DNA of 64,000 nucleotides from Oceanidesulfovibrio marinus (GTDB lineage: Bacteria; Desulfobacterota; Desulfovibrionia; Desulfovibrionales; Desulfovibrionaceae): NCBI RefSeq assembly GCF_013085545.1, contig NZ_CP039543.1:2821322-2885321 (forward strand), read 5' to 3'. The notes beneath the pieces were generated by a model. That model made no database searches, had not been told where the DNA came from, and worked only from the letters and a program-made list of their open reading frames with translations. Of this stretch, positions 24,821 to 38,531 are shown in pieces. Numbering within the stretch: the first letter of the stretch is position 1; each line of letters opens with the position of its first letter. The position numbers were made by a program, and so were the translations under genes.

Positions 24821-25471
24821 ATGGAGCAGCGCATATTCGCCGTCGGCGACATCCACGGAACGCTGGGCAAGCTGCGCACCCTGCTGGACCGCCTGCCCGT
24901 CACGGAGCAGGACACGGTCGTGTTCATGGGCGACTACATCAACCGCGGGCCGGACGCCAAAGGCGTCATCGATCTGCTGCTCGAATTCCGCGCGCACCAT
25001 CCGGACACGATCTTTCTGATGGGCAACCACGAGTACGAGCTCCTGGAGTATGCACACACCCACGATACGGAGCATCTGCAGACGCTGCGACGCCTGGGCG
25101 TGGAGGCCACGCTGGAGAGCTATGGCGACGCCCCGGTCAGCGCGCTGCGCGATCTCTCCTTCATGCCTGCGGAGCACGCCGCCTTTTTAGAGGAGCTGCT
25201 GCCCTTTTACAGGCAGGACGGCTATCTCTTCGTGCACGGGGGGGTAACGCCGGGCTGCACGCCCGAAGAATGCCCGCTCGACGTGATGCTGGCCCTGCGG
25301 GGATCGTTTCTGACCGACCCGTGGCAGGGGCCGGAGACCGTCGTGTTCGGACACACGTCCTTCCAAACGCCGTTCGTGGCGGAGCGCAAGATCGGCATCG
25401 ATACCGGGGCTGTGCTCGGCAACCTGCTCACGGCCGTGGAGCTGCCGCGGCTGCGCTTCTATCACGCCTGA
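24821..25471 (+). CDS. calcineurin-like metallophosphoesterase (Ser/Thr phosphatase PPP-type)
   Basis: Predicted cytoplasmic phosphatase of 216 residues. All metal motifs are seen: GDIHG (residues ~9-13), GDYINRGP, GNHE, then HGG and GHTSFQTP. This matches bacterial PPP-type enzymes like PrpA/PrpE that act on phosphoproteins or Ap4A; which one is undecided. The stop overlaps the convergent end of the PEP-binding gene by 10 nt. It lies outside the operon on the other strand, but a phosphatase next to a phosphotransfer system is noteworthy. Confidence 0.9.
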   Translation: MEQRIFAVGDIHGTLGKLRTLLDRLPVTEQDTVVFMGDYINRGPDAKGVIDLLLEFRAHHPDTIFLMGNHEYELLEYAHTHDTEHLQTLRRLGVEATLESYGDAPVSALRDLSFMPAEHAAFLEELLPFYRQDGYLFVHGGVTPGCTPEECPLDVMLALRGSFLTDPWQGPETVVFGHTSFQTPFVAERKIGIDTGAVLGNLLTAVELPRLRFYHA

Positions 25472-27996
25472 AAATCAACGTGCTCCAGGGCCAGATCGCC
25501 CTCCAGAAACGCCTCGGCCGCCTTGCGCGGCGCGTCGTCGTCCACCATGGCGCCGTCCATGAGCCGGCTGAAGCCGAGCAGACGCCCCAGCATGTGGAGC
25601 TGCTCGCGCACGTCGTCGCCGGGCACCTCCGTGAGCGAGGCCGTGACCAGGTCGCCCTGGGTGTCCGTTGCGTAGCCGTTCGCCCGCAGAATCCGGCCGA
25701 TGAACTCGGCGCGGCGCTCCCGCTGCACGGCCGCTGTGCCCCCGCCCTTGAAGCGGAAGCGAACGAAGTTCTCCTGCTGGTTGGGGCCGCACACGCTGTC
25801 CACCATGGCGAAGTGGAAGTCCACGCGAGCGTTGAGGTTCAGGTAGTCGCGGGTGATCAGGGCGTAGTTCTGGTTGCCCAGGGGACGCTCGCCGCCGCCG
25901 TCGATCATGGAGCGGGACATGAGCTCGGACACGGAAAGCACGGGCGGGGCCGCCCGCCAGCGCAGGCCCGGAGTGTTCATGCCCTCGCAGAGCGCCTGGA
26001 GCGGCGCGGAGAGCACGTCCCTGACGCTGATCCTGCGCCCCACGTCCGGGGCTAGGCCGCCGCCCAGGTCGATGATCAGAAACTGCAACGGCACGTCGTC
26101 CAGCCAGTGGACCAGGCTGTCCGCCTCCTCCACCGCCTCGTCCCCGGCGTGGAACAGGCTGAGCAGCGTCTTCTCGTGGCAGAAGCGCACGATGTCGTGC
26201 AGGGAGCGGCACTCGCTGATGGAGAAGGTGGGGCCATACGCGTCGGTCAGGTTGAGCGGCACGATGAGGTCGCGGAGCTCCCTGGCGCGGGCCGAGAGGC
26301 TGGCGTGGGGCGCGTGCTCGCGCTTGCGCTGCGGCATGCTCGCCACCACGTCGGGCGGAACCCGCGTCACCACGTGGTCGTCAGCATCCACGATGACCAG
26401 CTCACCCTCGGGAATGGCGTCCACTGCGCCGGGCGCGCCGGTGATCATGGGCACGCCGTACTCCCTGGCCACGCAGGAAAGATGGTCGGTGGGGTTGCCC
26501 AACTCCACCACCACGCCCTCCAGCCGCGGCATGAGCTGCGCCGCGTCCACAAGACTCTGGTGCAGCACGAGCACCACCGGGCCTTCGGGCAGGGGCTTGG
26601 TAAGATTGTCGGCGTCGCGCAGGACGCGGGCCTTGCCGAATGCCCGCCCAGATGCGGCGCAGACGCCGTCCGCAACCAGCTTCTCGCCGGTAATTCTGCG
26701 CGCCGCGCGGATAGCCTTGCCCTGCAGCCGGATGCTTCTGGACTGGAGGAAAAAGAGATCGCCATTCTGGTCCACGGCCCATTCCATATCCTGGGGCGCG
26801 CCGAATAGAACCTCGGCCAGCAGGCCCCAACGTAGCAGCGCGGAAATTTCATTGTGAATCAGAGCCGGCTCGGCGCGCTCCTGCTCGGAAAGCGTGGCCA
26901 TGGTCAGGCCGCCGCCTTCGGCAGGCACCTCGCCCCCTTCCTTGTCGGCAATGATGCTCAGCACGTCGGCCGGGTCGTCGCGCAGGGGCTGGAAAACGTC
27001 GGCCGGGGAGCTCCCGCCAACAGCCTGGGTGCCCAGGCCGCGCACCGCGGAGAGCAGCATGCGCCCGTTCTCCGGGTCCGAGGGGTTGAGCGTGAAAAGC
27101 ACGCCGGCGGCGCGGGCATCGACCATGGTCTGGACAATGGCGGCCATGGAAAAATCGTCCAGGGGCAGCCCGGCCTGGCGGCGGTAGGTCAGGGGCCGGG
27201 CCCCGAAGTTGCTGGCCACCACATCCTTGTACGCCTGGATGAGCGCGTCCTCGCTGCACACGTTGAGCACGGAGGTGAACTGCCCGGCAAAGGAGTGGGC
27301 CGGGTTGTCCTCCACCAGAGCGCTGCTGCGCACGGAGACCGGAGGCGAGCCGATGGCGCGCCAGTGATCCGCCAGGGCCGATCGGATGTCATCCGGCACC
27401 TGCGCGGCGTTGATGAGCGCCCGAATTTCCCGCGCCGCGGCGGACGGGTCCCCTGCCCCGGCGTCCAGGGGCCGCAGGATGCGCAGGATGCTCTCGTCCA
27501 GGCCGCTACGCTCCAGAAAACGCCGGCACGCCAGCGACGTCATCACAAAGCCGGGCGGCACCGGCATGCCGGAGCGGATCATCTCGCCCAGGAAGGCGGC
27601 CTTGCCGCCGATGGAGCGCGCCTGCTCCGTGGCCGCGTCCTCCAGGGGTATAGCCAGGATCTCGGCGTCGCCCTCGGAGTCCAGCCGGGCGGTTACCTGT
27701 CGCGTGGTCCGGGCCAGGCGGTCGTGCGCGCTGTACAGGGCCGGGTAACGGTTGTCCGAGAGCCGGTTCAGGCCGTCCACCAGCTCGAAGGTTACGGCCA
27801 GCAGCTCTTCCAGGATGGTGCTCAGGCCGGAGCGTTTCAGCAGCGCCTCGTCGAACGAGCTGATGAGCTCCAGGGCGCGCTCGTTGCTGTGCAGCACGGC
27901 GCGGAAGGTGTGGTAGCGGGCCTTGAGGATGCGCAGGGCCTCCTGTTCCCGCTCCAGCCGCCGTCTGGCGTAGATATCCCTGACCCAGCGAATCAT
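25462..27996 (-). CDS. PEP/pyruvate-binding domain protein, paralog 3 (PEP-synthase-like, no barrel)
   Basis: Predicted 844-residue cytoplasmic protein. Residues ~1-105 are helical; ~125-425 form a PPDK/PEP-synthase N-terminal ATP-grasp domain with GGKAAFLGEMIRSG, SVRSSALVEDNPAHSFAGQF and the end LFFLQSRSI; ~440-540 form the swivelling phosphohistidine domain with His505 in NPTDHLSCVAREYGVP. Real PEP synthases then have a PEP/pyruvate barrel. It is replaced by a ~260-residue domain with CRSLHDIVRFCHEK near 596-609. Start ATG overlaps the stop of paralog 2 (ATGA). This is the paralog whose ATP-grasp motifs are best kept. Last gene of the operon; substrate unknown. Confidence 0.85.
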   Translation of the reverse strand: MIRWVRDIYARRRLEREQEALRILKARYHTFRAVLHSNERALELISSFDEALLKRSGLSTILEELLAVTFELVDGLNRLSDNRYPALYSAHDRLARTTRQVTARLDSEGDAEILAIPLEDAATEQARSIGGKAAFLGEMIRSGMPVPPGFVMTSLACRRFLERSGLDESILRILRPLDAGAGDPSAAAREIRALINAAQVPDDIRSALADHWRAIGSPPVSVRSSALVEDNPAHSFAGQFTSVLNVCSEDALIQAYKDVVASNFGARPLTYRRQAGLPLDDFSMAAIVQTMVDARAAGVLFTLNPSDPENGRMLLSAVRGLGTQAVGGSSPADVFQPLRDDPADVLSIIADKEGGEVPAEGGGLTMATLSEQERAEPALIHNEISALLRWGLLAEVLFGAPQDMEWAVDQNGDLFFLQSRSIRLQGKAIRAARRITGEKLVADGVCAASGRAFGKARVLRDADNLTKPLPEGPVVLVLHQSLVDAAQLMPRLEGVVVELGNPTDHLSCVAREYGVPMITGAPGAVDAIPEGELVIVDADDHVVTRVPPDVVASMPQRKREHAPHASLSARARELRDLIVPLNLTDAYGPTFSISECRSLHDIVRFCHEKTLLSLFHAGDEAVEEADSLVHWLDDVPLQFLIIDLGGGLAPDVGRRISVRDVLSAPLQALCEGMNTPGLRWRAAPPVLSVSELMSRSMIDGGGERPLGNQNYALITRDYLNLNARVDFHFAMVDSVCGPNQQENFVRFRFKGGGTAAVQRERRAEFIGRILRANGYATDTQGDLVTASLTEVPGDDVREQLHMLGRLLGFSRLMDGAMVDDDAPRKAAEAFLEGDLALEHVDFQA

Positions 27997-30377
27997 GGCA
28001 GTTCCTTTGCGGCCTCGTATTGAGCTGCCACCTCGCGGAAGGCCTGCTCCATGCGGCCCAGGCTGTCCTCCCGGCCCATGGAGATATCGAGCTGCCTAGT
28101 GAAAGCCGTGAGGATACCGAGCTGCTCCAGCGCGTCCGCCATGGTCTCGCGGTCTACGATCTTGAGCCGGCCTGTCACCAGATCGCCGGTCATCTCCACG
28201 TTGAACTGCAGCGTGGCCAGCACACGGCGGATCAGCTCCGCACGCCTGTTCTTGCGTTCTGCGTCGGCAAAGCCGCCGGCAAAGCGGAAGTAGATGTAAT
28301 TCTGGTGCGGATTGTCCTGCATGAAAGCGTCCACCACGCTGTAGTGGTAGCCCATGTGCAGGCTGAGGTTGAAGTACCCGGTGGCCAGGATGGCGAGGTT
28401 CATGCCCTGCTCGGCCGGTGCCTGGAGCACGGCCGCGGTGCGCTGCATGCCGGAGAAGATGTCGCGCATGGAGACCTGCAGGTTCTCCCGGTTGTCCCAG
28501 GCGTAGCGCAGGCCGCCCAGGAAGCGGTGCATGGGTTCGGAGAGAATATCATCGCGCGTGACCACGGGGCCGGCGTCCTCGGCCAAGCCGCCGCCGGCGT
28601 CCACCAGGCCGATGTTCAGGGGGATGCGCATCTCCAGGCGATGCGGCTCGATGCACGCGCCGCCGCCCTCGTGCGCGTCCAGCAGCTCCTCCACGGCGCG
28701 TTCGTGCGCAAAGTGGATGATGTCGTGGAAGCTGCGGCAGTTCTGCGGGGCAAAGGACTCGGAGCCGGAGTCCGTGAGCTTGAGCGGCATGATGAACTGC
28801 AGCAGCCGGCGCAGGGTGGTGAACTCGGGGTCGGTGGCGTAGAGCTCGGAGCCTGCCCTGCTCTGGGAAAGAAGGATGTCGAGGGAGCCTGCGTAGACCA
28901 CCGGGACCGAGGCGTCCACGGTGACCTCCGCGCCGGGCTTGAGGGTCTTGAGCGCGCCGGCCGCGCCGAACACGGCCGGGATGCGGTACTCCCGCGCCAC
29001 GGTGGCGAGGTGGCCGATGGTGGAGCCCAACTCCGTGACCAGGGCGCCGGCCTTGAGCAGGAACGGGGCGAGCTGCGGCGAGGCGGCGCGGGCCACGGCA
29101 ACTGCGCCCAGGGGGAACTCCTCCGGGTCGTCGCCTTCCTTGATGTGCACCACCTTGCCGGCGGCCGCGCCGGCCTGTGCCGAGTTGCCGCCGCGCAGCA
29201 GCACTTTCGCCTGGTCCAGCACGGCGGCCAGATCGTCGGCGTCCGCGGCCTCCTCCACGATCTCGGCGACCGCCGCATCCAGGATGCGCGGAACCCCTTC
29301 CCTGTCCAGGCAGAGGTGCAGCTCCTGCGGCGCGCCCAGGGCGCGCTCCAGCACAATGCCCGCCTCGGCGATGAGCCGCTGGGAATCGGCCGGCAGCAGG
29401 CCGGAGCCGCGCAGCAGGCCGCCGCCCACGGGCGTGAGTGGTTTGACGCCGTCGGGCAGGCGCACGGCCTCGTCCTTGGGCCGGATGTCGGACTCTGCCG
29501 GCGGAAATGGGTGGGCGCGGCGCAGGTTGTAATGCTCCTCACCGGCCGGGCCGCTCATGGCCAGGGACATGGCTCCCAGAGTGCGGGACTCCGGGCAGCA
29601 GGTGCGCAGGCGTCCCCAGTACTCGCTGGGCACGCGCTCGCGCACGCCCACAGCCATATCGCGCCAGCCCAGGGCCACGCCTTTGCGGCACGCTTCCAGC
29701 ACGTCCCGGACGATGTGCTCCCTGTTCGATTCCTGCGCCGGCAGGCCGGAGGCCGGCTCGCTACCGCCGGCCGGGCAGGCCGAGACGGCTAGCCCTTCCG
29801 GACGGCCCAGGCGCTGCCACAGGGCGTCGGTCTCGCGCAAGATGGCCTGCTCCAGCTTCGGGGTCATGCCCTTCTCCTGCATCAGGCGGCAGGCGGTCAC
29901 CGTAACCACGAAGCCGTCCACGGCGCCGATGTGCGGAGTGCGCAGCAGCTCGGCCAGACAGACGTTGGGCATGCCGGCCAGGGGCAGGTTCTCCCAATGC
30001 AGCTCGGGAAAGCCCATGGCCAGCCGGGAGGCCTGCGGGCCGAGGCCGCCCGAAAGAATGTCGTCGAGCACGCCCTTGATGTACTCGTAGCGGTCGTAGA
30101 GCTCCACGTAGCGGTCGTCGGTCATGGCGTTCAGGCTGTAGGCCACCTGATGGACCAGACCGCTCATGTCCCGCACGGCGCGTGAGAGGAAGGCGTTGTC
30201 GAAGATGTACTCGCCGCCGAGGGCGCTTTCGAGCTCGGCCATCTTTTCCATGATGGCGTTGTTGAGCTCCAGAATGCGTCTGAACTTGTGGAACAGGGAG
30301 CGCAGCGACGTCGGGCTCTCCTGCTCTTGCTTGCATCCACCCCGACGCGAGAAGAGTGAGCGCAAGTAGCCGGCCAT
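27993..30377 (-). CDS. PEP/pyruvate-binding-like protein, paralog 2, with decayed ATP-grasp domain
   Basis: Predicted 794-residue paralog of its neighbours. The helical N-terminus (LRSLFHKFRRILELNN; ALGGEYIFD) aligns with paralog 1. The ATP-grasp region has lost GGKA, VRSS-type and ILQxRPI motifs (last reads ILDAAVAEI), so ATP binding is doubtful. The swivel domain is intact with His456 in STIGHLATVAREYRIP, and the C-terminal domain keeps CRSFHDIIHFAHER near 547-560. It might accept phosphate from a sister protein; that is inference. The ATG overlaps the receiver stop as TGATG and its stop overlaps paralog 3. Confidence 0.82.
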   Translation of the reverse strand: MAGYLRSLFSRRGGCKQEQESPTSLRSLFHKFRRILELNNAIMEKMAELESALGGEYIFDNAFLSRAVRDMSGLVHQVAYSLNAMTDDRYVELYDRYEYIKGVLDDILSGGLGPQASRLAMGFPELHWENLPLAGMPNVCLAELLRTPHIGAVDGFVVTVTACRLMQEKGMTPKLEQAILRETDALWQRLGRPEGLAVSACPAGGSEPASGLPAQESNREHIVRDVLEACRKGVALGWRDMAVGVRERVPSEYWGRLRTCCPESRTLGAMSLAMSGPAGEEHYNLRRAHPFPPAESDIRPKDEAVRLPDGVKPLTPVGGGLLRGSGLLPADSQRLIAEAGIVLERALGAPQELHLCLDREGVPRILDAAVAEIVEEAADADDLAAVLDQAKVLLRGGNSAQAGAAAGKVVHIKEGDDPEEFPLGAVAVARAASPQLAPFLLKAGALVTELGSTIGHLATVAREYRIPAVFGAAGALKTLKPGAEVTVDASVPVVYAGSLDILLSQSRAGSELYATDPEFTTLRRLLQFIMPLKLTDSGSESFAPQNCRSFHDIIHFAHERAVEELLDAHEGGGACIEPHRLEMRIPLNIGLVDAGGGLAEDAGPVVTRDDILSEPMHRFLGGLRYAWDNRENLQVSMRDIFSGMQRTAAVLQAPAEQGMNLAILATGYFNLSLHMGYHYSVVDAFMQDNPHQNYIYFRFAGGFADAERKNRRAELIRRVLATLQFNVEMTGDLVTGRLKIVDRETMADALEQLGILTAFTRQLDISMGREDSLGRMEQAFREVAAQYEAAKELP

Positions 30378-30811
30378 CAGGCGCTTCCGTTGGTGTCGTC
30401 CTGCGGCTGGTCTGAAGCGGAGTCGGCTTGCCGCCGCCCGGCCTCCACGCGTTTCACGGCGTCGAGTATCTCACTGAGCTTGAAGGGCTTGGCCAGAAAG
30501 TCGAAGGCGCCCTTGCGGAAGGACTCCTTGGCTGTGTCCAGAGTGGCAAAGCCGGTGATGACGATGACCCCGGTATCCGGAGATATTTCTTTGATCCTGG
30601 TGAGAAAGCGCATGCCGTCCACGCCTTCCATCTTCAGGTCGGTGATAACCACGTCAAAGTGCGCCTCCTCGATGCGGGCCATGGCTGAGGCGCTGTCGTT
30701 CAGGGTCTCGACATCGTACCCCGCCTTCTGGAACGCCGGCTTGAGCCGCTTGCAGACGATGGGCTCGTCATCCAGTATAAGTATTCGAACTTTCTCGTTG
30801 TCCTTGTTCAT
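30377..30811 (-). CDS. single-domain response regulator (receiver) between PEP-like paralogs
   Basis: Predicted 144-residue receiver domain. Acidic pair in LILDDEPIVC, phosphoacceptor Asp58 in VVITDLKMEGVDG, Thr in VIVITGFAT, and Lys in FLAKPF. There is no output domain; the tail is polar. The start at 30811 lies inside the end of paralog 1 (44-nt overlap) and its stop overlaps the paralog 2 start, so it is coupled to both. It may be phosphorylated by the divergent kinase at 35735-37180 or another kinase, linking two-component signalling to these proteins. Confidence 0.9.
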   Translation of the reverse strand: MNKDNEKVRILILDDEPIVCKRLKPAFQKAGYDVETLNDSASAMARIEEAHFDVVITDLKMEGVDGMRFLTRIKEISPDTGVIVITGFATLDTAKESFRKGAFDFLAKPFKLSEILDAVKRVEAGRRQADSASDQPQDDTNGSA

Positions 30812-33368
30812 CCTGTTCTCCCGGGCCGTTGGAAATCTGTTGCATGAAGACGGCAAGATGGTCCTGCACGTCCTCGTCGCTCTGCAACACCACGTCGAGC
30901 TGACGGGTGTAGCCGACCAGGCCGCCAAGCATGTTCATCTTCTCTATGCCGCGTGCCAAGGATATCTTTTTAATCCTACCCACGACAAGGTCGCCGCGTA
31001 CTTCCACCCTGAAGTCGAAGCGCTCCAGGACCTCGGCGATGAAGCTCGCCCGGCGGGAACGGCGCTCGATATCGGTGACGCCGCCAAGGAAACGGAAATA
31101 GATGTAGTTGTCGTTCTCGGATTCACTCAGGAACGCGTCGATGATGTTGTAATGATAGCCGAGCTGCAGGTGCAGGTTGAGGTACTCCTTGGAGACCACG
31201 GCCAAGTTCCGCCCGATGCGGCTGGTGGCGGCCACCGAGAAGGTGCGTGTGAAGCTGGACATGAAGCTGGACAGGTCCACGGAGACCGGCCGCGTGCACC
31301 ACATGCCGGGCTGGCACATGCCGTCCAGCAGACTTTTGAGCGGCACGGAGAGCACGTGCTTGAGCTCCAGGTCCTCGTCGGTCTTGCACATGCCGTCTTC
31401 CACGTCGATAACCGTCAGCCCCAGGGACATGTGCAGGTTCAGCCGTCTGGGCTTGGTCTCGTGCAGCTCCCGGCGCTCGCTGAGCTGGATGAGCTCACTC
31501 ACGGCCTTCTCGTGGATGTAGCGCGTGATGTCGTGGAACGTGGTGCAGTTGGAGGGCCGGAAGTCGTCGCTCTTCGGGTCCACCAGGTGCAGGGGCGTGA
31601 TGCGCTTGAGCAGCCGGCGGAGCAGCCGGTACTCGTACGACTCTTCAAACACGCACTGGCTGGTGAGCTCGTAGCGCCTCAGGCCGGGCACGATGCCGCG
31701 GTAGACCACGTTGTTGCCGGCGTCCAGGGTGATCTCCTCGCCGGTTTGGAGCCGGGTGGTGGCGTCGCCGGCATTCACGATGGTGGGCACGCGGTGCTCC
31801 CTGGCGATGGTAGCCATGTGGCCGGCCGGGGAACCGATGTCGGTGATGATGCCCCTGGCGTGGGACATGATCCGCGAGAAGCGCGGCGAGGTGAAGTGGC
31901 TGACCAGGATGGCGCCATAGGGAAAGTCGTGCAGGTCCTCGTCGTTCTCCACCACGAACACCTTGCCCGAGGCCACGCCCTGCTGCACGATGATGCCCTG
32001 GCCGGCCATCAGCGTGTCCTCCACGTCCGGGGCGGGAGGCGGCGGCAGCGTATCGGCCTGCAGCTCGAAACGTATGGGACGCGCCTGGAGGATGTAGAGC
32101 TCGCCGTCCGCGTCGTAGCACCACTCCGCCTCGACGGGCCGCTTGAGAAAACTTTCGATGTCCAGGCCGGCGCGGGCCAGCTGCACGAGCTGTTCCTTGG
32201 AGATGCAGGGCGTCTTGCCCTCATCCTGGGAGAGATTCTTCCAGACCGTGCCGCCTTCCGGGTTGAGTTCCAGAAGCTGGTCCTTGATCTCGGTGTGGGT
32301 GGAGCGCACGGCGAACGGCGCCAGCCGCTCGATATAAAAAGTATCGGACTTGATCACCCCGCCCATGAGCGGCGCGCCCAGGCCCGGCGTGCAGTTGACC
32401 ACCATAACCTCTTTCTGCGACGGATCGGCCGGGTAGGTCTGCAGGGTGCCGCTGCACTCGGCGGCGATCATGAGCTGGAAGCCCACGCCCATGGCCAGCT
32501 CTTCTTCATGAAAGCCCTTGATGATGCGGTAGCGCCAGGCCTGCGGGGAGTAGGCGCCGGCAACGACCATCTTGTAGGCGTCGAGCAGCCCCTCCTGCCT
32601 GATGCCCAGCTCGCTCTCGTACTGGCCGGCAAAGCTGCTCTCTTCGTCCTCGCCCCAGGCGCTGCTGCGCACGGCAAAAAGGTGGGGCCCCTTATCGCCT
32701 TCGCGCCTGAGCCTGGAAACGAGCGCGTCGGCCTCGCCCATGATGTCTGCGGCCAGAGGCTTGGGGATGTCGGCCTTGAGGATCTTCTCGCGGATCTCCA
32801 CGCACATCTGGTCGAAGGCGGCCTCGTCCTTGCCGTCCCAGGCCGTCACGGCCTCGTGGATGGTGCGGCGCAGGCCGTTGTGGTCGAGAAATGCGAAGAA
32901 CGCCTTGGTGGTGGCCACGAACCCGTCCGGCACCCGGTGGCCCAGGGTGTTGCGGATGATGCCCAGGTTGTTGAGCTTGCTCCCGGCCGCGTCCACCGTG
33001 CCCTGGTCCAGAGATTCCAGGGGAATGGTCAGGCTCACCTGGTCGAAGGCGTGCCTGCCGGAGAGTTCCTCGTGGATGGCGTGGCGGATGCGCTCGTACG
33101 CCTTGAAGAGCTCCACGTTCTTGTCCTGGTTCAGCACGCTCAGGTCGGAGATGAGCTTGAAGACCAGGTCCTCGAGCTGCTCGCACGAGGAGAGGATGTA
33201 CTGCTTGTCAAAGACGTACTCGCCTCCCAGCTTGTCGCCCATGTCGCCCATCAGCTCAAGGATGCGGTTGTTCCGCTCGATAAGCCCCTTGAACTTGCGA
33301 AAGAGCGTGGTGAAGGAAACCGGGGGCTTCTTGGGGCGCCAGAAGGCGAGTACGTTTAACAGATTCAC
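30768..33368 (-). CDS. PEP/pyruvate-binding domain protein, paralog 1
   Basis: Predicted 866-residue cytoplasmic protein. Helical region 1-110 (FTTLFRKFKGLIERNN); ATP-grasp domain ~125-432 keeping FAVRSSAWGEDEESSFAGQY and the end LYILQARPI, though GGKA is replaced by GSKL; swivel domain ~455-560 with His517 in SPAGHMATIAREHRVP; then a C-terminal domain with CTTFHDITRYIHEK (608-621) and YLNLHLQLGYHYNIIDAF later. The PEP/pyruvate barrel of PEP synthase or PPDK is absent. Located between the TIGR02186-like gene and the receiver gene. An ATP-driven histidine phosphotransfer reaction is plausible; acceptor unknown. Confidence 0.85.
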   Translation of the reverse strand: MNLLNVLAFWRPKKPPVSFTTLFRKFKGLIERNNRILELMGDMGDKLGGEYVFDKQYILSSCEQLEDLVFKLISDLSVLNQDKNVELFKAYERIRHAIHEELSGRHAFDQVSLTIPLESLDQGTVDAAGSKLNNLGIIRNTLGHRVPDGFVATTKAFFAFLDHNGLRRTIHEAVTAWDGKDEAAFDQMCVEIREKILKADIPKPLAADIMGEADALVSRLRREGDKGPHLFAVRSSAWGEDEESSFAGQYESELGIRQEGLLDAYKMVVAGAYSPQAWRYRIIKGFHEEELAMGVGFQLMIAAECSGTLQTYPADPSQKEVMVVNCTPGLGAPLMGGVIKSDTFYIERLAPFAVRSTHTEIKDQLLELNPEGGTVWKNLSQDEGKTPCISKEQLVQLARAGLDIESFLKRPVEAEWCYDADGELYILQARPIRFELQADTLPPPPAPDVEDTLMAGQGIIVQQGVASGKVFVVENDEDLHDFPYGAILVSHFTSPRFSRIMSHARGIITDIGSPAGHMATIAREHRVPTIVNAGDATTRLQTGEEITLDAGNNVVYRGIVPGLRRYELTSQCVFEESYEYRLLRRLLKRITPLHLVDPKSDDFRPSNCTTFHDITRYIHEKAVSELIQLSERRELHETKPRRLNLHMSLGLTVIDVEDGMCKTDEDLELKHVLSVPLKSLLDGMCQPGMWCTRPVSVDLSSFMSSFTRTFSVAATSRIGRNLAVVSKEYLNLHLQLGYHYNIIDAFLSESENDNYIYFRFLGGVTDIERRSRRASFIAEVLERFDFRVEVRGDLVVGRIKKISLARGIEKMNMLGGLVGYTRQLDVVLQSDEDVQDHLAVFMQQISNGPGEQDEQGQRESSNTYTG

Positions 33369-33392
33369 GTGTATTGTCCTTAACGCAGAGAC

Positions 33393-34151
33393 CTAGTGCG
33401 CTTCTCCCTTGCTCTGGAAGATCAGGCCGATGACCAGGCCGCTGACAAGTGCGATGATCGTGGCCAGGATACCATACAAGGCGCCGTGGCCGAAGGCGAG
33501 CTTTGCCATGAACAGAGGCGTGCTGACCAGCTCGACCTTGAGATCCTTCTCGGTCATGGCGACCTCCTGCCCGTCCTTCACGGCGATGCTGGCCAGCTTG
33601 TAGTCGCCGGGGGCCAAGCGGGAGGGAATGGGCAGCGTGGCCATGAACGATTGCATGCCGTCCTTGACCTCGCCCATGGCAACCTCGCCGGCTTCTTCCT
33701 GATACAGGCGTTCCTTGGTCTTCAGCTTGATGAGCTGATCGATGAGCTCGGGCCGGGCCGCGGTGTCGGGCTCGATCTCGATGGTGTTGAGCATGGACTC
33801 GGCCTTCAGCTCCTTGCCGGCGGCGCCCAGCTCGTCCAGAGGCTTGGAGCTGCCCACGATGTAGAGCACCGGCACGCCGTGGAAGGTGAGGGAGTCCATG
33901 TTCATCCACAGCAGGCCCAGGGCCTTGTCCTTGCGCTTCATGTGCAGCTCGCCGGCCTCGCCGACGATGCGCAGCACGATCTGGCTGCCTTCGGGCGCCT
34001 GGCCTTCGACCTTGACGGTGGTGCCGTTGTAGGTGGTGTCGATCTTGATGGTCTCAGGCGTGACCTGCATGGACATGTCGCCTTGCGCAAAGGCGGGAAC
34101 ACACAGGGCCGCGATCAGCATCGTGGTGAGGATGAGGTGTCTGAGCTTCAT
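33393..34151 (-). CDS. TIGR02186-like membrane-anchored periplasmic protein
   Basis: Predicted 252-residue protein with a signal peptide (LILTTMLIAALCVPAFAQ), a periplasmic region of about 190 residues and one C-terminal helix (ILATIIALVSGLVIGLIF) with a short cytoplasmic tail. Beginning and layout match the TIGR02186 / Alph_Pro_TM family, known to accompany TauE/SafE permeases. Here it starts 2 bp after the permease stop, supporting that partnership. Biochemical role unknown; it may bind the exported anion or gate the permease. Confidence 0.75.
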   Translation of the reverse strand: MKLRHLILTTMLIAALCVPAFAQGDMSMQVTPETIKIDTTYNGTTVKVEGQAPEGSQIVLRIVGEAGELHMKRKDKALGLLWMNMDSLTFHGVPVLYIVGSSKPLDELGAAGKELKAESMLNTIEIEPDTAARPELIDQLIKLKTKERLYQEEAGEVAMGEVKDGMQSFMATLPIPSRLAPGDYKLASIAVKDGQEVAMTEKDLKVELVSTPLFMAKLAFGHGALYGILATIIALVSGLVIGLIFQSKGEAH

Positions 34152-34153
34152 GA

Positions 34154-35092
34154 TTAATGACCTCCCACGTACGCCAGCAGGATATCCGGCCGGGCGATGA
34201 GTTCATAGAGCATCTTGCCCATCACGACCAGAACCAGAGTTGCGAGCAGGATCTTGAGCTGGTCGCCCTGGAGCTTGCGGCCGATGCGGGCGCCGACCTG
34301 CGCTCCGATGGAGGAGCCGATGAGCAGGAGGAACGCCAGCACGAAGTCCACCGTGTGGTTCTGGCTGGCCTGCATGATGGTGACGTTGATGCAGGTGAAA
34401 AGAATCTGGAACAGGCTGGTGCCCACAACCACGTGCATGGGCATACGCAGCAGGTAGACCATGACCGGAACCATGATGAAGCCACCGCCGACGCCCATGA
34501 TGGCGGCGAGGATGCCGACCAGAGTGCCCAGCGCCAGGGGCATGATCACGGACATGCGTACGCCGGAGCGCTTGAAGTCGGTCTGCCAGGGCAGGGCCTG
34601 GAACATGCGCGCGTACTTGGATTCCTTCTTGGGCTTGGCCGCTTCCTTTTCCGCGGTCTTGCTCTTGCGCATGGACTGCAGGCTCTCCAGGAACATGTAG
34701 CCGCCCACGAAACCGAGCATGAGCACGTATGTGATGCTGATGAGGAAGTCCGCGTTGCCCATGGCCCGCAGGACCTTGATTATCTGCACACCCACCGTGC
34801 CGCCCAGCACGCCGCCGATCAGCAGCAGAAAGCCCATTTTGAAGTCGACGTTGCCCAGGCGGAAGTGCGCCAGGGTGCCGGACGTCGAAGCACCGACAAT
34901 TTGGTTGGAGTCCGAAGCCGCCGCCACGGTGGCGGGGATGCCCAGCATGATCAGCAGCGGCGTCATGAGAAAGCCGCCGCCCACGCCAAATATGCCAGAG
35001 AGCAACCCAACGCCGCCGCCGAGTCCGAAGATCGCGGCGATATTAACGCTGTTGCCTGCGATTGGCAGGTAAAGATGCAAAGGTAGAGTCAT
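34154..35092 (-). CDS. TauE/SafE-family anion permease
   Basis: Predicted inner-membrane permease of 312 residues with about eight helices. The family repeat is seen twice: GGGVGLLSGIFGVGGGFLMTPLL near the start (split over residues ~25-50) and LVGILAAIMGVGGGFIMVP in the second half. TauE/SafE proteins export sulfite, sulfoacetate or other organosulfur anions. A cytoplasmic loop around residues 125-150 is very Lys-rich. It sits between the UspA-like and TIGR02186-like genes. In this probable sulfate reducer sulfite or sulfonate is a reasonable but unproven substrate. Confidence 0.9.
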   Translation of the reverse strand: MTLPLHLYLPIAGNSVNIAAIFGLGGGVGLLSGIFGVGGGFLMTPLLIMLGIPATVAAASDSNQIVGASTSGTLAHFRLGNVDFKMGFLLLIGGVLGGTVGVQIIKVLRAMGNADFLISITYVLMLGFVGGYMFLESLQSMRKSKTAEKEAAKPKKESKYARMFQALPWQTDFKRSGVRMSVIMPLALGTLVGILAAIMGVGGGFIMVPVMVYLLRMPMHVVVGTSLFQILFTCINVTIMQASQNHTVDFVLAFLLLIGSSIGAQVGARIGRKLQGDQLKILLATLVLVVMGKMLYELIARPDILLAYVGGH

Positions 35093-35094
35093 TG

Positions 35095-35508
35095 TTATTC
35101 CCCTCTGGAGGTCATTCGTCTAGGGGTGACTATCTCGACGCGGCAGGAGACCCGATGGCGGATCGTCTGCAGCGACGCCCACTCCTGTTCTGAATGGCCA
35201 CGCCCGATGTTGCCGTATTCAGTTACCAACAAGGTTATCTTGTTCTGTTCCACAAACCTGATCACTTCCTGCTCATAGCTACCCTCCGAGATAAACGAGT
35301 CGACGTGCAGGCCGTCGTCACTGGCGTCTTTGATCTGTTGATCGAGCTTGCGCCGGGAGTCCGGATCGGGTCCCGCATCGGGTTTTCCCGGCGGAAAAAC
35401 TGAAAGCACGTAGAGGCTCGCGCCTATTCTCTTGGCCAATGCAATGGACCTTGAGAGCGCCTCCCAAGGGACTTTGCCTCTGTTCATGCTGACAAGTATC
35501 CGTTCCAT
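35095..35508 (-). CDS. UspA-like protein, first gene of the seven-gene operon
   Basis: Predicted 137-residue protein with the UspA alpha/beta pattern: MERILVSMNRGKVPWEAL, then ALAKRIGASLYVLSVF and ITLLVTEYGNIGRG. The ATP-binding loop GxxGxxxxxxxxxG(S/T) is not clearly kept, so it may not bind ATP. GAGG lies 8 nt before the ATG. A sigma-54-type promoter is about 20 bp upstream, giving a very short leader. The operon continues with the permease, the membrane protein, PEP-like 1, receiver, PEP-like 2 and PEP-like 3. Confidence 0.78.
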   Translation of the reverse strand: MERILVSMNRGKVPWEALSRSIALAKRIGASLYVLSVFPPGKPDAGPDPDSRRKLDQQIKDASDDGLHVDSFISEGSYEQEVIRFVEQNKITLLVTEYGNIGRGHSEQEWASLQTIRHRVSCRVEIVTPRRMTSRGE

Positions 35509-35528: not shown

Positions 35529-35544
35529 AGCAAGCCCTGAGCCA
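35529..35544 (-). promoter_or_regulatory. sigma-54 promoter of the UspA/TauE/PEP-like operon
   Basis: On the minus strand TGGC (35544-35541) and TTGC (35533-35530) are separated by 7 bp, the exact -24/-12 spacing of sigma-54 promoters. Transcription would start near 35519, about 11 nt before the first ATG. Two palindromic sites lie 90-140 bp upstream. Confidence 0.7.
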
Positions 35545-35734: not shown

Positions 35735-37180
35735 ATGACTGACACACCGGCTGAGACACCCTCCCGCTACTCCCGGATGCGGACGTTTTGGCGGTCGATC
35801 AAGGGCAAGATATTCCTTGTCTTTTTTTCGACCTTCATCTCCGTTGCCGCGCTCACGCTGCTCAATTATTGGAGCATGAGCATGGTCACGGACCGCCTGC
35901 ACCTGCTGGAGCGCTACGAAGACCTCCTGAACAACGTCCTGGAGGTCCGGCGCTTCGAGAAGAACTTCCTCTTCTACAACGACCCCACCAGCCTGCAGGA
36001 GAGCCTCGAGTATCTGCAGCGCATCGACGTGATTTTCGAGGAGCTGGGCGCCGACATCCGCCAAGTCATCGGCAACGTCGCCTACAGGCAGCTCACCGGC
36101 GTGTTCCTTGTGTATGAGGACATCATCGAGGAGGCGCGGGACGAGCCCGTCGCCCACCAGGAGCAGCTCAGAAGCCTGGGCAAGGAGCTGGTGGAATCGG
36201 CCGACGCCCTGCTCAAGAACAAACGGGAGCGCATCCATCGCGCCGTGGTGCGCACCTCGTTCATCCCGTTCACCTCGCTCGTGGTCTTCGGCCTGCTCAT
36301 GTTCCTGGTGGTCAAGCTCATCTCCCGCGGGCTGCTCGTGCCCCTGGCCACGATCAAGGTGACCACGCAGCGCGTTGCGCGCGGCGACTTCCGGCCCATC
36401 TCGCCCACGGCCGACCAGATCGAGGAGATCGCCGGCCTGATCGGCGCCTTCAACCGCATGGCCCAGGAGCTGGAGGCCAACCAGGAAGACCTGCTGCAGG
36501 CGCGCAAGATCGCGGCCCTCGGCACCTTCACCGCCGGCATCGCCCACGAGCTGAACAACCCCATCAACAACATCTCGCTCTCGGCCGAGACGTTGGGCGA
36601 GCTCTACGGCGAGGAGCTGGACGAAGACGCCAACGAGATGGTCCACGACATCATCATGCAGTCCGAGCGCGCCGGCGAGATCGTCAAGAATCTCCTGGAC
36701 TTCTCGCGCACGGAACGGCCGGCCTTCTCGCCGCTTCAGGTACTGGACGTCATCGACAGCACCGTAACCCTGATCAAGAACCAGCTCATGGTCACCGGCG
36801 TCACCCTGGACATGGACATCCCGGAGGACATTCCGGACATCCAGGGCAACCTGCGCAACCTCCAGCAGGTGTTCATGAATCTCCTGCTCAACGCCATCCA
36901 GGCCATGCCGGGCGGCGGCGCCATCACCATAGCCGCGCGGGAGCAGGGCCAGAAGATGGTGCGCATCGAGGTGCGCGACACCGGCGCAGGCATCGATCCA
37001 AAGGTGCTCGAACACATCTTCGAGCCCTTCTTCACCACAAAGGAAGTGGGCAAGGGCACCGGCCTGGGCCTTGCCGTGATGTACTCCATTGTCCAGCGCC
37101 ACGGCGGACGCGTGGAGGTGAAAAGCGAACCGGGCAAAGGCAGTGTCTTTGCCGTGATCCTGCCCAGGGCGGAGCAGTAA
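35735..37180 (+). CDS. membrane sensor histidine kinase
   Basis: Predicted 481-residue inner-membrane kinase. Two membrane helices (residues ~24-45 and ~177-197) enclose a periplasmic helical sensor of about 130 residues rich in charged residues; HAMP follows (~198-250). HisKA has His271 in GIAHELNNPINNISL; ATPase boxes are NLLLNAIQAM, DTGAGID, and GTGLGLAV. The ATG has GGGGAA just upstream. Its partner is the sigma-54 regulator 4 bp downstream. The signal is unknown; the divergent permease operon suggests a periplasmic sulfur anion or stress. Confidence 0.92.
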   Translation: MTDTPAETPSRYSRMRTFWRSIKGKIFLVFFSTFISVAALTLLNYWSMSMVTDRLHLLERYEDLLNNVLEVRRFEKNFLFYNDPTSLQESLEYLQRIDVIFEELGADIRQVIGNVAYRQLTGVFLVYEDIIEEARDEPVAHQEQLRSLGKELVESADALLKNKRERIHRAVVRTSFIPFTSLVVFGLLMFLVVKLISRGLLVPLATIKVTTQRVARGDFRPISPTADQIEEIAGLIGAFNRMAQELEANQEDLLQARKIAALGTFTAGIAHELNNPINNISLSAETLGELYGEELDEDANEMVHDIIMQSERAGEIVKNLLDFSRTERPAFSPLQVLDVIDSTVTLIKNQLMVTGVTLDMDIPEDIPDIQGNLRNLQQVFMNLLLNAIQAMPGGGAITIAAREQGQKMVRIEVRDTGAGIDPKVLEHIFEPFFTTKEVGKGTGLGLAVMYSIVQRHGGRVEVKSEPGKGSVFAVILPRAEQ

Positions 37181-37184
37181 ACGT

Positions 37185-38531
37185 ATGTCCAGAACACGCA
37201 TTGCCGTCATTGACGACGAAGTCACGGTCTGCCGCAGGCTCAGCCAGGCGCTCTCCAAGGACGGCATGGACGTGGAGGCGTTCACCACCGGCGCGGCCTT
37301 CCTCGCCCGGCTGGAGGAAGGCGGCTTCGACGTGGTCATCACCGACCTGCGCCTGCCGGACATCTCCGGCATGGAGATTCTGGAGAAGATCAAGGGGTTG
37401 CGGCCGGAGATCGAGGTCATCATGATCACCGGCTACGGCGCCGTGGATACGGCCATCGAGGCCATCAAGCTGGGTGCGCACCACTACGTGACCAAGCCCA
37501 TCAAGCTGGGCGAGATCCGCGTGCTCATCCAGGGCGCGCTGGAGAAGATCGCCCTGCGCCGGGAGAACCAGCGCCTGCGCGACGTCATCAAGCCCGAAGG
37601 CGGCATCAGCTCCATCATCGGCGCGGGCGATGCCATGCGCGACATCTTCTCGCTCATCCATAAGGTGGCGCCGGTGGACTGCAACGTGCTGCTCGAAGGC
37701 GACAGCGGCACGGGCAAGGCCCTGGTGGCGCGCGCCATCCACGACCTCAGCCCCCGCCGGGACCACCCCTTTGTCTCCTTCAACTGCGGCGGCTTTACCG
37801 ACGAGCTCATCACCAGCGAGCTCTTCGGCTACGAGAAAGGCGCATTCACCGGCGCGGCCGCAACCAAGATCGGCCTGCTGGAGTCCGCGGCCGGCGGCAC
37901 CGTATTCCTGGACGAGATCGGCGAGATGCCCCTGACCATGCAGGTGAAGCTGCTGCACGTGCTCCAGGAGCGCAAGATCCTGCGCGTGGGCGGCACCCGG
38001 CCCATCGACCTCGACATCCGCATCGTGGCCGCCACCAACAAGGACCTCAAGCAGGAGGTCACGGACGGCGGGTTCCGCGAGGACCTCTTCTTCCGGCTCA
38101 ACGTGGTCACTATCCACCTGCCGCCGCTGGTGGAGCGCAAGGAGGACATCCCCCTTCTGGCCAAGCACTTCATGGAAAAGTACAGCCTGGCCTTCCACAA
38201 GACCGTGGCCTCCATCCATCCCTCGGCCATGAACCTGCTCATCGGCTACAGCTTCCCGGGCAACGTGCGCGAACTGGAGAACATCATCGAGCGCGCCGTG
38301 GCGCTGACCGACTGCGAAGAGATACGCCTGCAGGACCTGCCGCAGGATCTGCAGCAGCTCGAAGTGGACACCATGGAGGGTGAGGGGCTCCAGAGCCTGG
38401 AGGAGCTGGAGCGCCGGCACATCGCCAAGGTGCTGGAGAAAACCGGCTACAACAAGGGGCTGGCCGCGCAGATTCTGAACATTCCCAGGACCACCCTCTG
38501 GCGCAAGCTCAAGCAGTACAATATCGAATGA
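37185..38531 (+). CDS. sigma-54-dependent response regulator (NtrC family)
   Basis: Predicted 448-residue activator. Receiver domain with Asp54 in VVITDLRLPDISG; AAA+ domain with Walker A LLEGDSGTGKALVARA, the sigma-54 contact motif GAFTGA, Walker B VFLDEIGEMP; and a Fis-type HTH at the end (NKGLAAQILNIPRTTLWRKL). The Walker A has Asp where Glu is common (GDSGTGK). It is cotranscribed with the kinase. GTTTCA-N3-TGAAAC palindromes near two sigma-54-like promoters, one on each side of this gene pair, are its probable targets. Confidence 0.94.
   Translation: MSRTRIAVIDDEVTVCRRLSQALSKDGMDVEAFTTGAAFLARLEEGGFDVVITDLRLPDISGMEILEKIKGLRPEIEVIMITGYGAVDTAIEAIKLGAHHYVTKPIKLGEIRVLIQGALEKIALRRENQRLRDVIKPEGGISSIIGAGDAMRDIFSLIHKVAPVDCNVLLEGDSGTGKALVARAIHDLSPRRDHPFVSFNCGGFTDELITSELFGYEKGAFTGAAATKIGLLESAAGGTVFLDEIGEMPLTMQVKLLHVLQERKILRVGGTRPIDLDIRIVAATNKDLKQEVTDGGFREDLFFRLNVVTIHLPPLVERKEDIPLLAKHFMEKYSLAFHKTVASIHPSAMNLLIGYSFPGNVRELENIIERAVALTDCEEIRLQDLPQDLQQLEVDTMEGEGLQSLEELERRHIAKVLEKTGYNKGLAAQILNIPRTTLWRKLKQYNIE

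Follow-up and report, generated by a model that had tools for sequence, protein, structure and literature searches.

What three proteins resembling PEP synthase do in one operon with a permease and a lone receiver domain is the question raised by this locus. The window, a stretch of 64,000 nucleotides of Oceanidesulfovibrio marinus (contig NZ_CP039543.1, positions 2,821,322 to 2,885,321), carries on its minus strand, at 25462-35508, seven packed genes in the order Usp, TauE/SafE, Alph_Pro_TM, PEP-like 1, receiver, PEP-like 2 and PEP-like 3 (Table 1). All seven ORFs lie where the initial annotation had put them and on the same strand, and each has, corrections of name aside, the domain ascribed to it by Pfam: Usp scored 29.9 bits (cut-off 24), Response_reg 104.8 bits (cut-off 30.2) and TauE 166 bits (cut-off 32.6), which places the permease in the TauE/SafE (TSUP) family. 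The protein named as TIGR02186-like reached only 66.6 bits with TIGR02186 (cut-off 255), but passed the Pfam cut-off for Alph_Pro_TM (147 bits, cut-off 24.5). Tight packing with ATGA/TGATG overlaps was also borne out by the ORF coordinates: 2 bp separate Usp from TauE and TauE from Alph_Pro_TM, 24 bp lie between Alph_Pro_TM and PEP-like 1, the end of PEP-like 1 contains the likely start of the receiver, the receiver and PEP-like 2 have one base in common (TGATG), and PEP-like 2 and PEP-like 3 overlap by 4 bases (ATGA). The gene list was, however, incomplete, as a divergent histidine kinase and sigma54 activator (35735-38531) and a convergent metallophosphatase had been missed. Elements like the sigma54 -24/-12 element in front of Usp were not above chance number in a window-wide scan; of 28 equivalent intergenic regions, 14 contain a strict version (13 of 26 when two duplicate contigs are removed).

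Table 1. Coordinates of the operon and of the neighbouring features in the window
Feature	Position	Strand	Remarks
Metallophosphatase (Metallophos, PPP-type motifs)	24821..25471	plus	Convergent with the operon; kept beside the three-paralog set
PEP-like 3	25462..27996	minus	Helical N-terminal domain, intact ATP-grasp (PPDK_N), swivel domain with His, C-terminal domain (CTD)
PEP-like 2	27993..30377	minus	Architecture as in PEP-like 3; swivel His retained, ATP-grasp degenerate with loss of K,R,E,Q,R
Stand-alone receiver (CheY-like)	30377..30811	minus	Listed ORF opens at 30928, likely ATG at 30811
PEP-like 1	30768..33368	minus	Helical N-terminal domain, intact ATP-grasp, swivel domain (His 517), CTD
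CTD of PEP-like 1	30771..31652	minus	Uncharacterised domain in the place of the barrel; alignments and structure model
Alph_Pro_TM (TIGR02186-like) protein	33393..34151	minus	Sole match in the genome
TauE/SafE (TSUP) permease	34154..35092	minus	One of 8 matches in the genome
UspA-like protein	35095..35508	minus	Pfam Usp
Sigma54 -24/-12-like element TGGCTCAGGGCTTGCT	35529..35544	minus	20 bp before the Usp start codon, 1 mismatch
Histidine kinase (HAMP, HisKA, HATPase)	35735..37180	plus	Divergent; recurs in the neighbourhoods of relatives
NtrC-type response regulator (receiver, sigma54 activator, Fis HTH)	37185..38531	plus	Pfam

The PEP-like proteins are not PEP synthases. The description of each as having a phosphohistidine swivel domain but no PEP/pyruvate barrel was confirmed: PEP-utilizers (the swivel) was matched with 65, 59 and 50 bits in PEP-like 1, 2 and 3 (Pfam cut-off 23.1), while PEP-utilizers_C (the barrel) was absent from all three in Pfam at E<=1, and the alignments to the PEP-synthase models TIGR01418 and NF005057 end at position 450-472 of 784-798 (for TIGR01418 at 450-466 of 784, with scores of 73-261 bits against a cut-off of 740). 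A clear barrel, which the initial annotation had named among the findings that would refute its reading, was looked for by Pfam, NCBIfam and structure comparison, including that of the CTD, and none was found. PPDK_N was matched with 215 bits in PEP-like 1 and 248 bits in PEP-like 3 (Pfam cut-off 27), and a Pfam search gave no match in PEP-like 2, the ATP-grasp region of which is degenerate, a correction to the initial description of three PEP-synthase-like paralogs. The ATP-site residues K,R,E,Q,R, the roles of which come from work on pyruvate phosphate dikinase, are present in PEP-like 1 and PEP-like 3 and lost in PEP-like 2, and the swivel His is found in all three. The degenerate region of PEP-like 2 still gives a 99.7% profile match to the ATP-grasp of PEP-like 1 and superimposes on the ATP-grasp fold of PEP synthase (Z 21.8, 239 aligned, 3.9 A). 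It is very improbable that these are ordinary PEP synthases or pyruvate-phosphate dikinases for gluconeogenesis that came into the operon by chance: PPDK_N (PEP-like 1 and 3) and the swivel domains are far over cut-off, but the barrel is not found, the scores are hundreds of bits under the cut-offs of the listed PEP-synthase models, PEP-like 2 is without the ATP-site residues, and the same genome has a separate PPDK_N protein of 800 residues (C1:4204134) without the CTD.

In place of the barrel, all three proteins end in an unnamed CTD of about 280 residues, which had no match in Pfam and no PDB sequence match at E<=10. A structure model of this domain from PEP-like 1 (pLDDT 88.4, pTM 0.80) gave weak fold matches (best Foldseek E 0.049; best VIA Z 6.0, 130 aligned, 3.9 A). 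Among 170 proteins, duplicates included, its near-invariant residues are H40 (170/170), D41 (169/170), H47 (169/170), H167 (168/170, with 2 gaps) and C36 (162/170). The H/D/H/H set would also suit a small-molecule active site, and near-invariant residues of this kind, as an active or metal site would have, enter a second explanation, by which an anion brought in by TauE would be phosphorylated by the PEP-like proteins, with the CTD as acceptor site like the rifampin domain of rifampin phosphotransferase, PEP-like 2 as a substrate-binding or structural subunit and the receiver as an allosteric subunit. Dikinase relatives without a barrel and with small-molecule acceptors exist, and rifampin phosphotransferase is among both the family and the fold matches. 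We nevertheless consider such a metabolite dikinase unlikely, since the neighbours are usually two-component genes, a PEP-like protein is in one case fused to a receiver, and PEP-like 2 retains the swivel His without an ATP site.

The three paralogs follow a recurrent pattern. In 22 of 26 distinct three-copy loci their order is intact-degenerate-intact: the middle paralog has lost the ATP-site residues and kept the swivel His, and in each of the 22, PEP-like 1 and PEP-like 3 retain all five ATP-site residues as well as the swivel His. In three of the four exceptions (L072, L089 and L099) all three ATP sites are kept; the fourth (L063) is rearranged, with one swivel His changed to Pro. The swivel His is present in 169 of 170 proteins, duplicates included. 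Identity of the ATP-grasp is 0.31 within the PEP-like 2 group, as against 0.48 in both PEP-like 1 and PEP-like 3, while that of the swivel is 0.59 in PEP-like 2, 0.65 in PEP-like 1 and 0.50 in PEP-like 3, indicating that the ATP site was lost selectively. In the tree, the first, middle and third paralogs form supported groups (0.982, 0.988 and 0.998). The proposal that paralogs 1 and 3 are ATP-using histidine kinases and paralog 2 the phosphate acceptor is supported by the residue pattern in 22 of the 26 loci, although the phosphotransfer itself is predicted from sequence; since many loci have a single PEP-like protein, PEP-like 2 cannot be the general acceptor. Nucleotide binding rather than phosphotransfer might instead report the energy state of the cell to the receiver and the permease, a role of scaffold or ATP sensor with which the degenerate yet folded ATP-grasp of PEP-like 2 would agree; it is rather improbable in view of the swivel His and five ATP-site residues kept in PEP-like 1 and 3 of every degenerate-middle triplet.

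Conservation of these genes together, on which the initial annotation had made its reading depend, was examined in a neighbourhood survey, and many other genomes were found to carry the gene set, which is more than chance: it occurs in sulfate-reducing bacteria and their kin, with up to three PEP-like copies. Of the genomes sampled, 102 of 120 in the order (E<=0.001) and 24 of 59 in the phylum (E<=1e-20) contain the family. A named set of 79 loci was kept as nearest to the CTD query, which biases the following counts: in the 2.5 kb upstream, on the same strand, TauE is found in 57 of the 62 named loci with flank and Alph_Pro_TM in 50 of 62; the receiver is directly downstream of a PEP-like gene in 65 of 78, and 40 of 44 have a histidine kinase no more than 9 kb away. 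In thirteen of these 44 a kinase is present without a sigma54 activator close by, which leaves the stand-alone receiver as the obvious output there. The receiver residues D,D,D,T,K are intact in all 66 receivers adjoining seed PEP-like genes (window included), and in one case (L097) a PEP-like protein and a receiver are fused in one ORF. Of 20 loci from the lower part of the order-wide matches listed, 13 had TauE within the 16-18 kb surveyed, as had 7 of 13 in an earlier pick (L109-L121); some relatives are not beside TauE, and L125, L129 and L137 are also without a receiver. The genome of the window itself has five CTD proteins at three loci, with TauE within about 6 kb at each.

The metallophosphatase (Metallophos, 58.6 bits in Pfam) belongs to the three-paralog version of the cluster. 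Its homologs adjoin 21 of the 22 distinct degenerate-middle triplet loci, and over 12 kb were found in 15 of 16 named triplets against 2 of 43 other named loci (Fisher p 5e-11). Among 27 ORFs, three of them duplicates, the PPP-type motifs GDxHG, GDxxxRG and GNHE occur in 27, 25 and 26. The nearest NCBIfam models, ApaH/PrpE for nucleotide hydrolases with 68 and 54 bits and models of protein phosphatases with 39 and 35 bits, all stay below cut-off; as the best, the Ap4A/nucleotide hydrolase model PRK00166, gave 68 bits against a cut-off of 176, this enzyme may not act on proteins, and a nucleotide hydrolase would also fit the metabolite dikinase.

TauE/TSUP permeases are numerous in sulfate reducers and their functions cannot be predicted (PMC5840216), but genetic data are available for a sister locus, the nitrate cluster of Desulfovibrio (DVU0251-DVU0245 / Dde_0597-Dde_0605; PMC4001038). 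D. vulgaris insertions in the genes of TauE (DVU0251), the receiver (DVU0247) or the PEP-like protein (DVU0246) are indifferent to 100 mM nitrate, phosphatase (DVU0245) mutants are still inhibited, and a D. alaskensis phosphatase mutant has raised fitness in nitrate; for DVU0250 and DVU0248 pooled and single mutants disagree (PMC4001038). The strain does not consume nitrate, and the authors suggested a leaky thiosulfate transporter and a block of anion entry; the available part of PMC4001038 describes neither the PEP-like family nor a mechanism for it. DVU0246 (2235 bp, shorter than the relatives analysed here) was assigned to the family from gene order, size and annotation rather than from its own sequence. 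In the present data the order TauE-?-PtxB-HK-receiver-PEP-like-DSP is seen in L110, whose PEP-like gene includes the CTD, and L010, from the genome of the window, represents at least part of such a cluster with the CTD, comprising HK, receiver, PEP-like, DSP and TauE. The same nitrate phenotype of PEP-like and permease insertions, with nitrate not consumed, is hard to explain by a metabolite dikinase unless uptake is coupled to phosphorylation. The proposed tie to an anion permease is supported by gene neighbourhood and by the genetics of this cluster (PMC4001038), while the direction, from signalling to permease, is presumed. With the direction reversed, TauE/Alph_Pro_TM would be the sensor ("transceptor"), and the PEP-like proteins and receiver would inform metabolism or the sigma54 regulator of its state. 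The gene sets fit this too, and DVU0539, the D. vulgaris regulator of a partly similar operon (Usp, PSE transporter), also targets lactate genes (PMC3333781, PMC4641369); its probability is low, however, given the 13 of 44 loci that have a kinase and no nearby sigma54 activator, and given that the simplest reading of nitrate resistance is the blocked anion entry suggested by the authors (PMC4001038).

The best reading, to which we give a little under an even chance, is that the locus encodes a two-component-gated, ATP-driven phosphohistidine switch controlling a TauE-type anion permease. The histidine kinase would sense an outside or redox signal and the NtrC-type regulator would turn the operon on; the stand-alone receiver, phosphorylated by the kinase, would dock onto the PEP-like proteins, a partnership suggested by adjacency and one fusion. 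PEP-like 1 and 3 would use ATP to phosphorylate their own swivel His in the manner of PEP synthase, and without a barrel the phosphate would pass not to pyruvate but to the swivel His of PEP-like 2, or to an acceptor handled by the CTD. This transfer would set the activity of the permease (anion uptake or export, perhaps of a sulfur oxyanion), and the metallophosphatase may reset the system, the whole being a PTS-type phosphorelay fed by ATP and commanded by a receiver. The linkage of the gene set is good; the phosphotransfer, the direction, the acceptor and the substrate are our inference. It is possible, though doubtful, that the module forms a bacterial signalling class of its own, the ATP-fed equivalent of the PTS with a pseudo-dikinase acceptor, in which swivel-His transfer under a CheY-like receiver would gate TauE-type permeases and the CTD, perhaps metal-binding, would be the output module; no description of the module as such was found in the literature searches made. 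A module that may switch TauE/TSUP permeases by histidine phosphate would join two-component systems with phosphoryl carriers of the PEP-synthase/PTS type, two kinds of signalling kept apart so far, and would explain the unexplained nitrate-resistance locus, which is relevant to souring control. This common family has an uncharted output domain, and the degenerate middle paralog with its conserved His makes a sharp and cheap phosphotransfer test possible.

Several known systems can be compared with the cluster. PEP synthase (TIGR01418) has ATP-grasp and swivel His domains in the same order, but the PEP-like proteins lack its barrel and carry, in addition, a helical N-terminal domain and the unnamed CTD. 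Rifampin phosphotransferase, a dikinase without a barrel, matches the ATP-grasp in family and fold; its swivel is C-terminal, whereas that of the PEP-like proteins precedes the CTD, and alignments split in two pieces. An assignment of PEP-like 1 and 3 to this enzyme was rejected on that swivel position and on scores of 118-202 bits against cut-offs of 999 and 1700. The PTS, a phosphorelay controlling transporters, shares the swivel His domain through enzyme I and PTS-Ntr (swivel fold of PEP-like 2, Z 11.5-16.2 among the matches listed), but ATP rather than PEP would be the donor, and the barrel was not found in the PEP-like proteins, which with TIGR01417 scores of 24, 12.5 and 17 bits (PEP-like 1, 2 and 3; cut-off 342) were rejected as enzyme I. 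No HPr/EIIA-like partner was noticed in passing. In D. vulgaris DVU0539-DVU0545, a histidine kinase and a sigma54-type regulator are likewise transcribed away from an operon that encodes Usp, a transporter and a small membrane protein, and the regulator activates the operon promoter (PMC10102598); the transporter there is PSE (TC 2.A.98) and not TauE, the phenotype is with molybdate, and PEP-like proteins and a stand-alone receiver are absent from the locus as described in the available part of that paper (PMC10102598). The nitrate cluster likewise brings together a TauE permease, a histidine kinase, a 360-bp receiver gene and a protein with PPDK_N and mobile domains (PMC4001038). Its full set includes a protein of about 195 aa, a PtxB-like protein and a dual-specificity phosphatase, and the window cluster falls outside it, with no PtxB-like or DSP gene in the ORF list or by Pfam; instead, the window has a metallophosphatase where the nitrate cluster has the dual-specificity phosphatase, and adds Usp, Alph_Pro_TM and two more paralogs, one of them degenerate.

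The seven tightly packed genes described in the initial annotation are real, and their open reading frames and Pfam domains are as stated there. In the order of transcription, Pfam assigns Usp, TauE/SafE, Alph_Pro_TM, PPDK_N with PEP-utilizers (PEP1, 866 aa), Response_reg, PEP-utilizers as the only match (PEP2, 794 aa) and PPDK_N with PEP-utilizers (PEP3, 844 aa). This account of the seven genes stood, but the flanking genes of a histidine kinase (HK), an NtrC-type regulator and a metallophosphatase had been overlooked. Opposite PEP1, an antisense frame stays open for 989 codons, probably as a by-product of high-GC coding.

Features of the window and of related loci (L009 and L010, other PEP-like loci of the same genome; L078, L087 and L110, loci of relatives; DSP, dual-specificity phosphatase)
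Feature	Location	Strand or orientation	Remark
Seven-ORF operon	window 25462-35508	minus	gaps of 2-24 bp or overlaps
Metallophosphatase gene	window 24821-25471	convergent with operon	overlaps end of PEP3 by 10 bp
Histidine kinase with HAMP	window 35735-37180	divergent from operon
NtrC-type regulator	window 37185-38531	divergent from operon
Sigma54-like element	20 bp before Usp start
CheA-like kinase	window 39498-41621	minus	just past the cluster
Antisense open frame	window 30390-33359	plus
DSP	L010 6631-7707	minus	nitrate-type cluster
DSP	L110 9037-10122	plus	nitrate-type cluster
234-residue protein	L009 7972-8673		between TauE and PEP-like gene
Degenerate PEP2-like protein	L078 65-2746	minus	divergent from operon
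Degenerate PEP2-like protein	L087 2-2071	minus	divergent from operon
Recurring arrangement 1			window type
Recurring arrangement 2			TauE...HK-receiver-PEP-like-DSP
Recurring arrangement 3			HK-receiver-TauE-?-PEP-like
Recurring arrangement 4			TauE divergent from sigma54-activator protein, then PEP-like

The three PEP-like proteins had been said to lack the PEP/pyruvate barrel, and none was found: the PEP-synthase models TIGR01418 and NF005057 (784-798 positions) align to them only up to 450-472, with scores far below the cut-offs, and on this ground ordinary PEP synthases were rejected. A helical N-terminal domain of ~110 residues and a C-terminal domain (CTD) of ~280 residues are common to PEP1-3 and two more proteins of the same genome. 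The predicted CTD model (pLDDT 88.4, pTM 0.80) is mixed alpha/beta, and its order of helices and strands disfavours a hidden barrel; the barrel-bearing entries noticed among the listed fold matches were only designed barrel-ferredoxin fusions, mostly over 62-64 residues, such lists being no proof of absence. No clear fold relative of the CTD was found with Foldseek (best E 0.049) or VIA (best Z 6.0), and a profile search of PDB sequences with the CTD gave no match at E<=10. Kinship with red chlorophyll catabolite reductase (Z 6.0) or coproporphyrinogen oxidase (Z 5.8) was dropped, as both lie within the VIA background.

Sampling of the order showed that 102 of 120 genomes carry the CTD (E<=0.001); for the phylum the figure is 24 of 59 (E<=1e-20). 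A scan of the species-genome collection revealed 433 stretches encoding it. The 79 loci retained belong mostly to sulfate reducers, but also to bins labelled Nitrospirae, Zixibacteria, Latescibacterota, Elusimicrobia, Armatimonadetes, Planctomycetota, Myxococcota and others. Among 170 surveyed proteins, which include duplicates (163 distinct sequences with swivel domain and CTD), the best conserved CTD residues are H40 (170), D41 (169), H47 (169), H167 (168) and C36 (162). This survey, which also covered the ATP site, excluded L001-L008 and L015-L022, whose fetched stretches were short or overlapped, and any protein not longer than 600 residues. The residue two positions before the swivel His, considered with a PEP-synthase regulatory protein in mind, is Thr in 99 of the 170 proteins and Ala in 41.

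The residues K, R, E, Q and R, which we take to form the ATP site with the roles they have in pyruvate phosphate dikinase, are all intact together with the swivel His in 139 of the 170 aligned proteins. Where three copies lie in the fetched stretch, the order intact-degenerate-intact is found in 22 of 26 distinct loci, and all 22 degenerate middle proteins retain the swivel His; L102 and L104, which duplicate the contigs of L042 and L040, were discounted, lowering the three-copy loci from 28 to 26 and the degenerate-middle loci from 24 to 22. The exceptions are L072, L089 and L099, with all three copies intact, and the rearranged L063, where the degenerate and third paralogs lie upstream of the metallophosphatase and TauE genes and the first-type copy carries Pro in place of the swivel His and Gly in place of the Lys. 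In L078 and L087 the degenerate protein accompanies an operon with one intact PEP-like protein, with no third copy within the fetched stretch.

The loss in PEP2 is concentrated in the ATP-grasp region, where mean identity is 0.31 against 0.48 in PEP1 and PEP3, while that of the swivel domain is 0.59 (PEP1, 0.65; PEP3, 0.50). The region is still recognisable by profile (99.7%), and its predicted fold (pLDDT 83.6) matches the ATP-grasp of PEP synthase with Z 21.8 over 239 aligned residues at 3.9 A. PPDK_N was absent from nine of ten middle paralogs scanned, L047 giving a partial match of 28.1 bits (cut-off 27). A re-check with regular expressions agrees with the alignment for the ATP site of PEP2, whose motifs it found in 0, 1 and 0 of 22 proteins; for PEP1 it found the RSS form in 19, the GGK form in 15 and the swivel form in 11 of 22, missing many motifs visible in the alignment because the patterns were over-strict, and the ATP-site and His counts rest on the alignment. 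A conserved swivel His without an ATP site is how a phosphate acceptor would be expected to look. In a FastTree tree with midpoint root, one group (support 0.988) holds the middle proteins and another (0.998) the third proteins, each with one outsider, and the first proteins group with 12 others (0.982). Since the paralogs group separately, the triplet appears to be ancient and to have been passed on as a unit.

The neighbourhood survey, made with local profiles of the window's domains over the fetched loci, revealed that the genes are conserved together, although the 79 named loci were chosen by likeness to the CTD query and their counts are biased accordingly. After exclusion of loci with too little flank, TauE lies <=2.5 kb upstream in 57/62, Alph_Pro_TM <=2.5 kb upstream in 50/62, a receiver directly downstream of the PEP-like gene in 65/78 and an HK <=9 kb away in 40/44. 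All five catalytic residues are kept in 66/66 receivers, including that of the window, and a fusion of receiver and PEP-like protein is seen in one Armatimonadetes bin (L097). In 20 further loci, from the lower part of the order-wide CTD matches listed, TauE was present in 13 and a receiver-type ORF in 17, the latter a weak figure since receivers are common in such genomes; an earlier pick (L109-L121) had TauE in 7 of 13. In the window's own genome TauE lies within about 6 kb of all three PEP-like loci, and, given the 8 TauE matches of this 4.76-Mb genome, the chance of this is ~3% per locus by hand estimate. The tie between PEP-like protein and TauE is thus strong, not universal. In the fourth recurring arrangement (L124, L126, L132, L134, L135 and L136) the sigma54-activator protein is large (850-1010 residues) and the PEP-like gene follows directly. 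The place of Alph_Pro_TM is taken in L009, the third cluster of the genome, by the 234-residue protein, for which Pfam gave no match at E<=0.01, and by unlabelled ORFs of 236-260 residues in L123, L130, L138 and L140.

A scan of the window for the sigma54 element gave 29 matches at <=2 mismatches, fewer than the 36.3 expected, and was discarded as evidence by itself. The element is retained only because it recurs in equivalent intergenic regions, its strict form occurring in 14 of 28, or in 13 of 26 once two duplicate contigs are removed, against ~1% expected per region by hand estimate. An HK without a sigma54 activator within 9 kb was found in 13/44 named loci. The CheA-like kinase carries Hpt, dimerisation, HATPase and CheW domains.

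The metallophosphatase gene goes with the triplet: 15 of 16 named triplet loci have it, compared with 2 of the 43 other named loci longer than 12 kb (Fisher p 5e-11); L063 (11.6 kb) fell under this filter despite having the gene, which L072 and L077 also carry. The six additional distinct degenerate-middle loci, the window among them, all have the gene, giving 21/22 overall, L039 being the one without it. The nitrate-type cluster, of the Desulfovibrio DVU0251-DVU0245 kind, has a DSP instead, which in L010 shows a C-terminal CxxCxxCC zinc/iron-chelating match (21.1 bits, under the cut-off of 23), making a redox or metal input possible. That each of the two versions of the system has its own, unrelated phosphatase gene would fit reversible phosphorylation.

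The best explanation, held tentatively and at slightly less than an even chance, is that the PEP-like proteins, ATP-driven and receiver-gated, would signal by phosphohistidine to the TauE-type permease. The linkage of the module genes is well supported; phosphotransfer and the direction of control are what we infer. The main rival is that the proteins act as a small-molecule dikinase. Confidence in signalling to the permease is reduced because the NCBIfam models nearest to the metallophosphatase are ApaH/PrpE-kind nucleotide hydrolases, followed by protein phosphatases (none reaching its cut-off), and because the DVU0543 transporter is, according to PMC10102598, of the PSE family, not TauE.

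Published genetics of the nitrate cluster can be linked to this family. According to PMC4001038, D. vulgaris with insertions in DVU0251 (TauE), DVU0250, DVU0247 (receiver) or DVU0246 (PPDK_N and mobile domain) grew equally with and without 100 mM nitrate, which inhibited mutants in DVU0245 (phosphatase), and the authors proposed a leaky thiosulfate transporter. L110 and, in part, L010 show the same gene order, with a receiver of 119 residues and a PtxB-like gene among its members, and in both clusters the PEP-like gene carries the CTD; DVU0246 is tied to the CTD family through this gene order, not by its own sequence. Pfam gave no match at E<=0.01 for the 197-residue DVU0250-like protein. If the cluster is read from TauE towards the PEP-like gene, the direction seen in L110, disruption of the PEP-like gene should spare TauE expression, and permease function then probably requires the PEP-like protein. 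Against such a role, PMC4001038 reports raised fitness of a D. alaskensis phosphatase mutant, conflicting results for DVU0250 and DVU0248 between single and pooled mutants, and similar resistance of rex mutants, outside the cluster. In the portions of the open-access literature searched, no description of a module that combines a TauE permease with a PEP-like protein and a receiver was found beyond that of PMC4001038. The module is wider than in the initial annotation.
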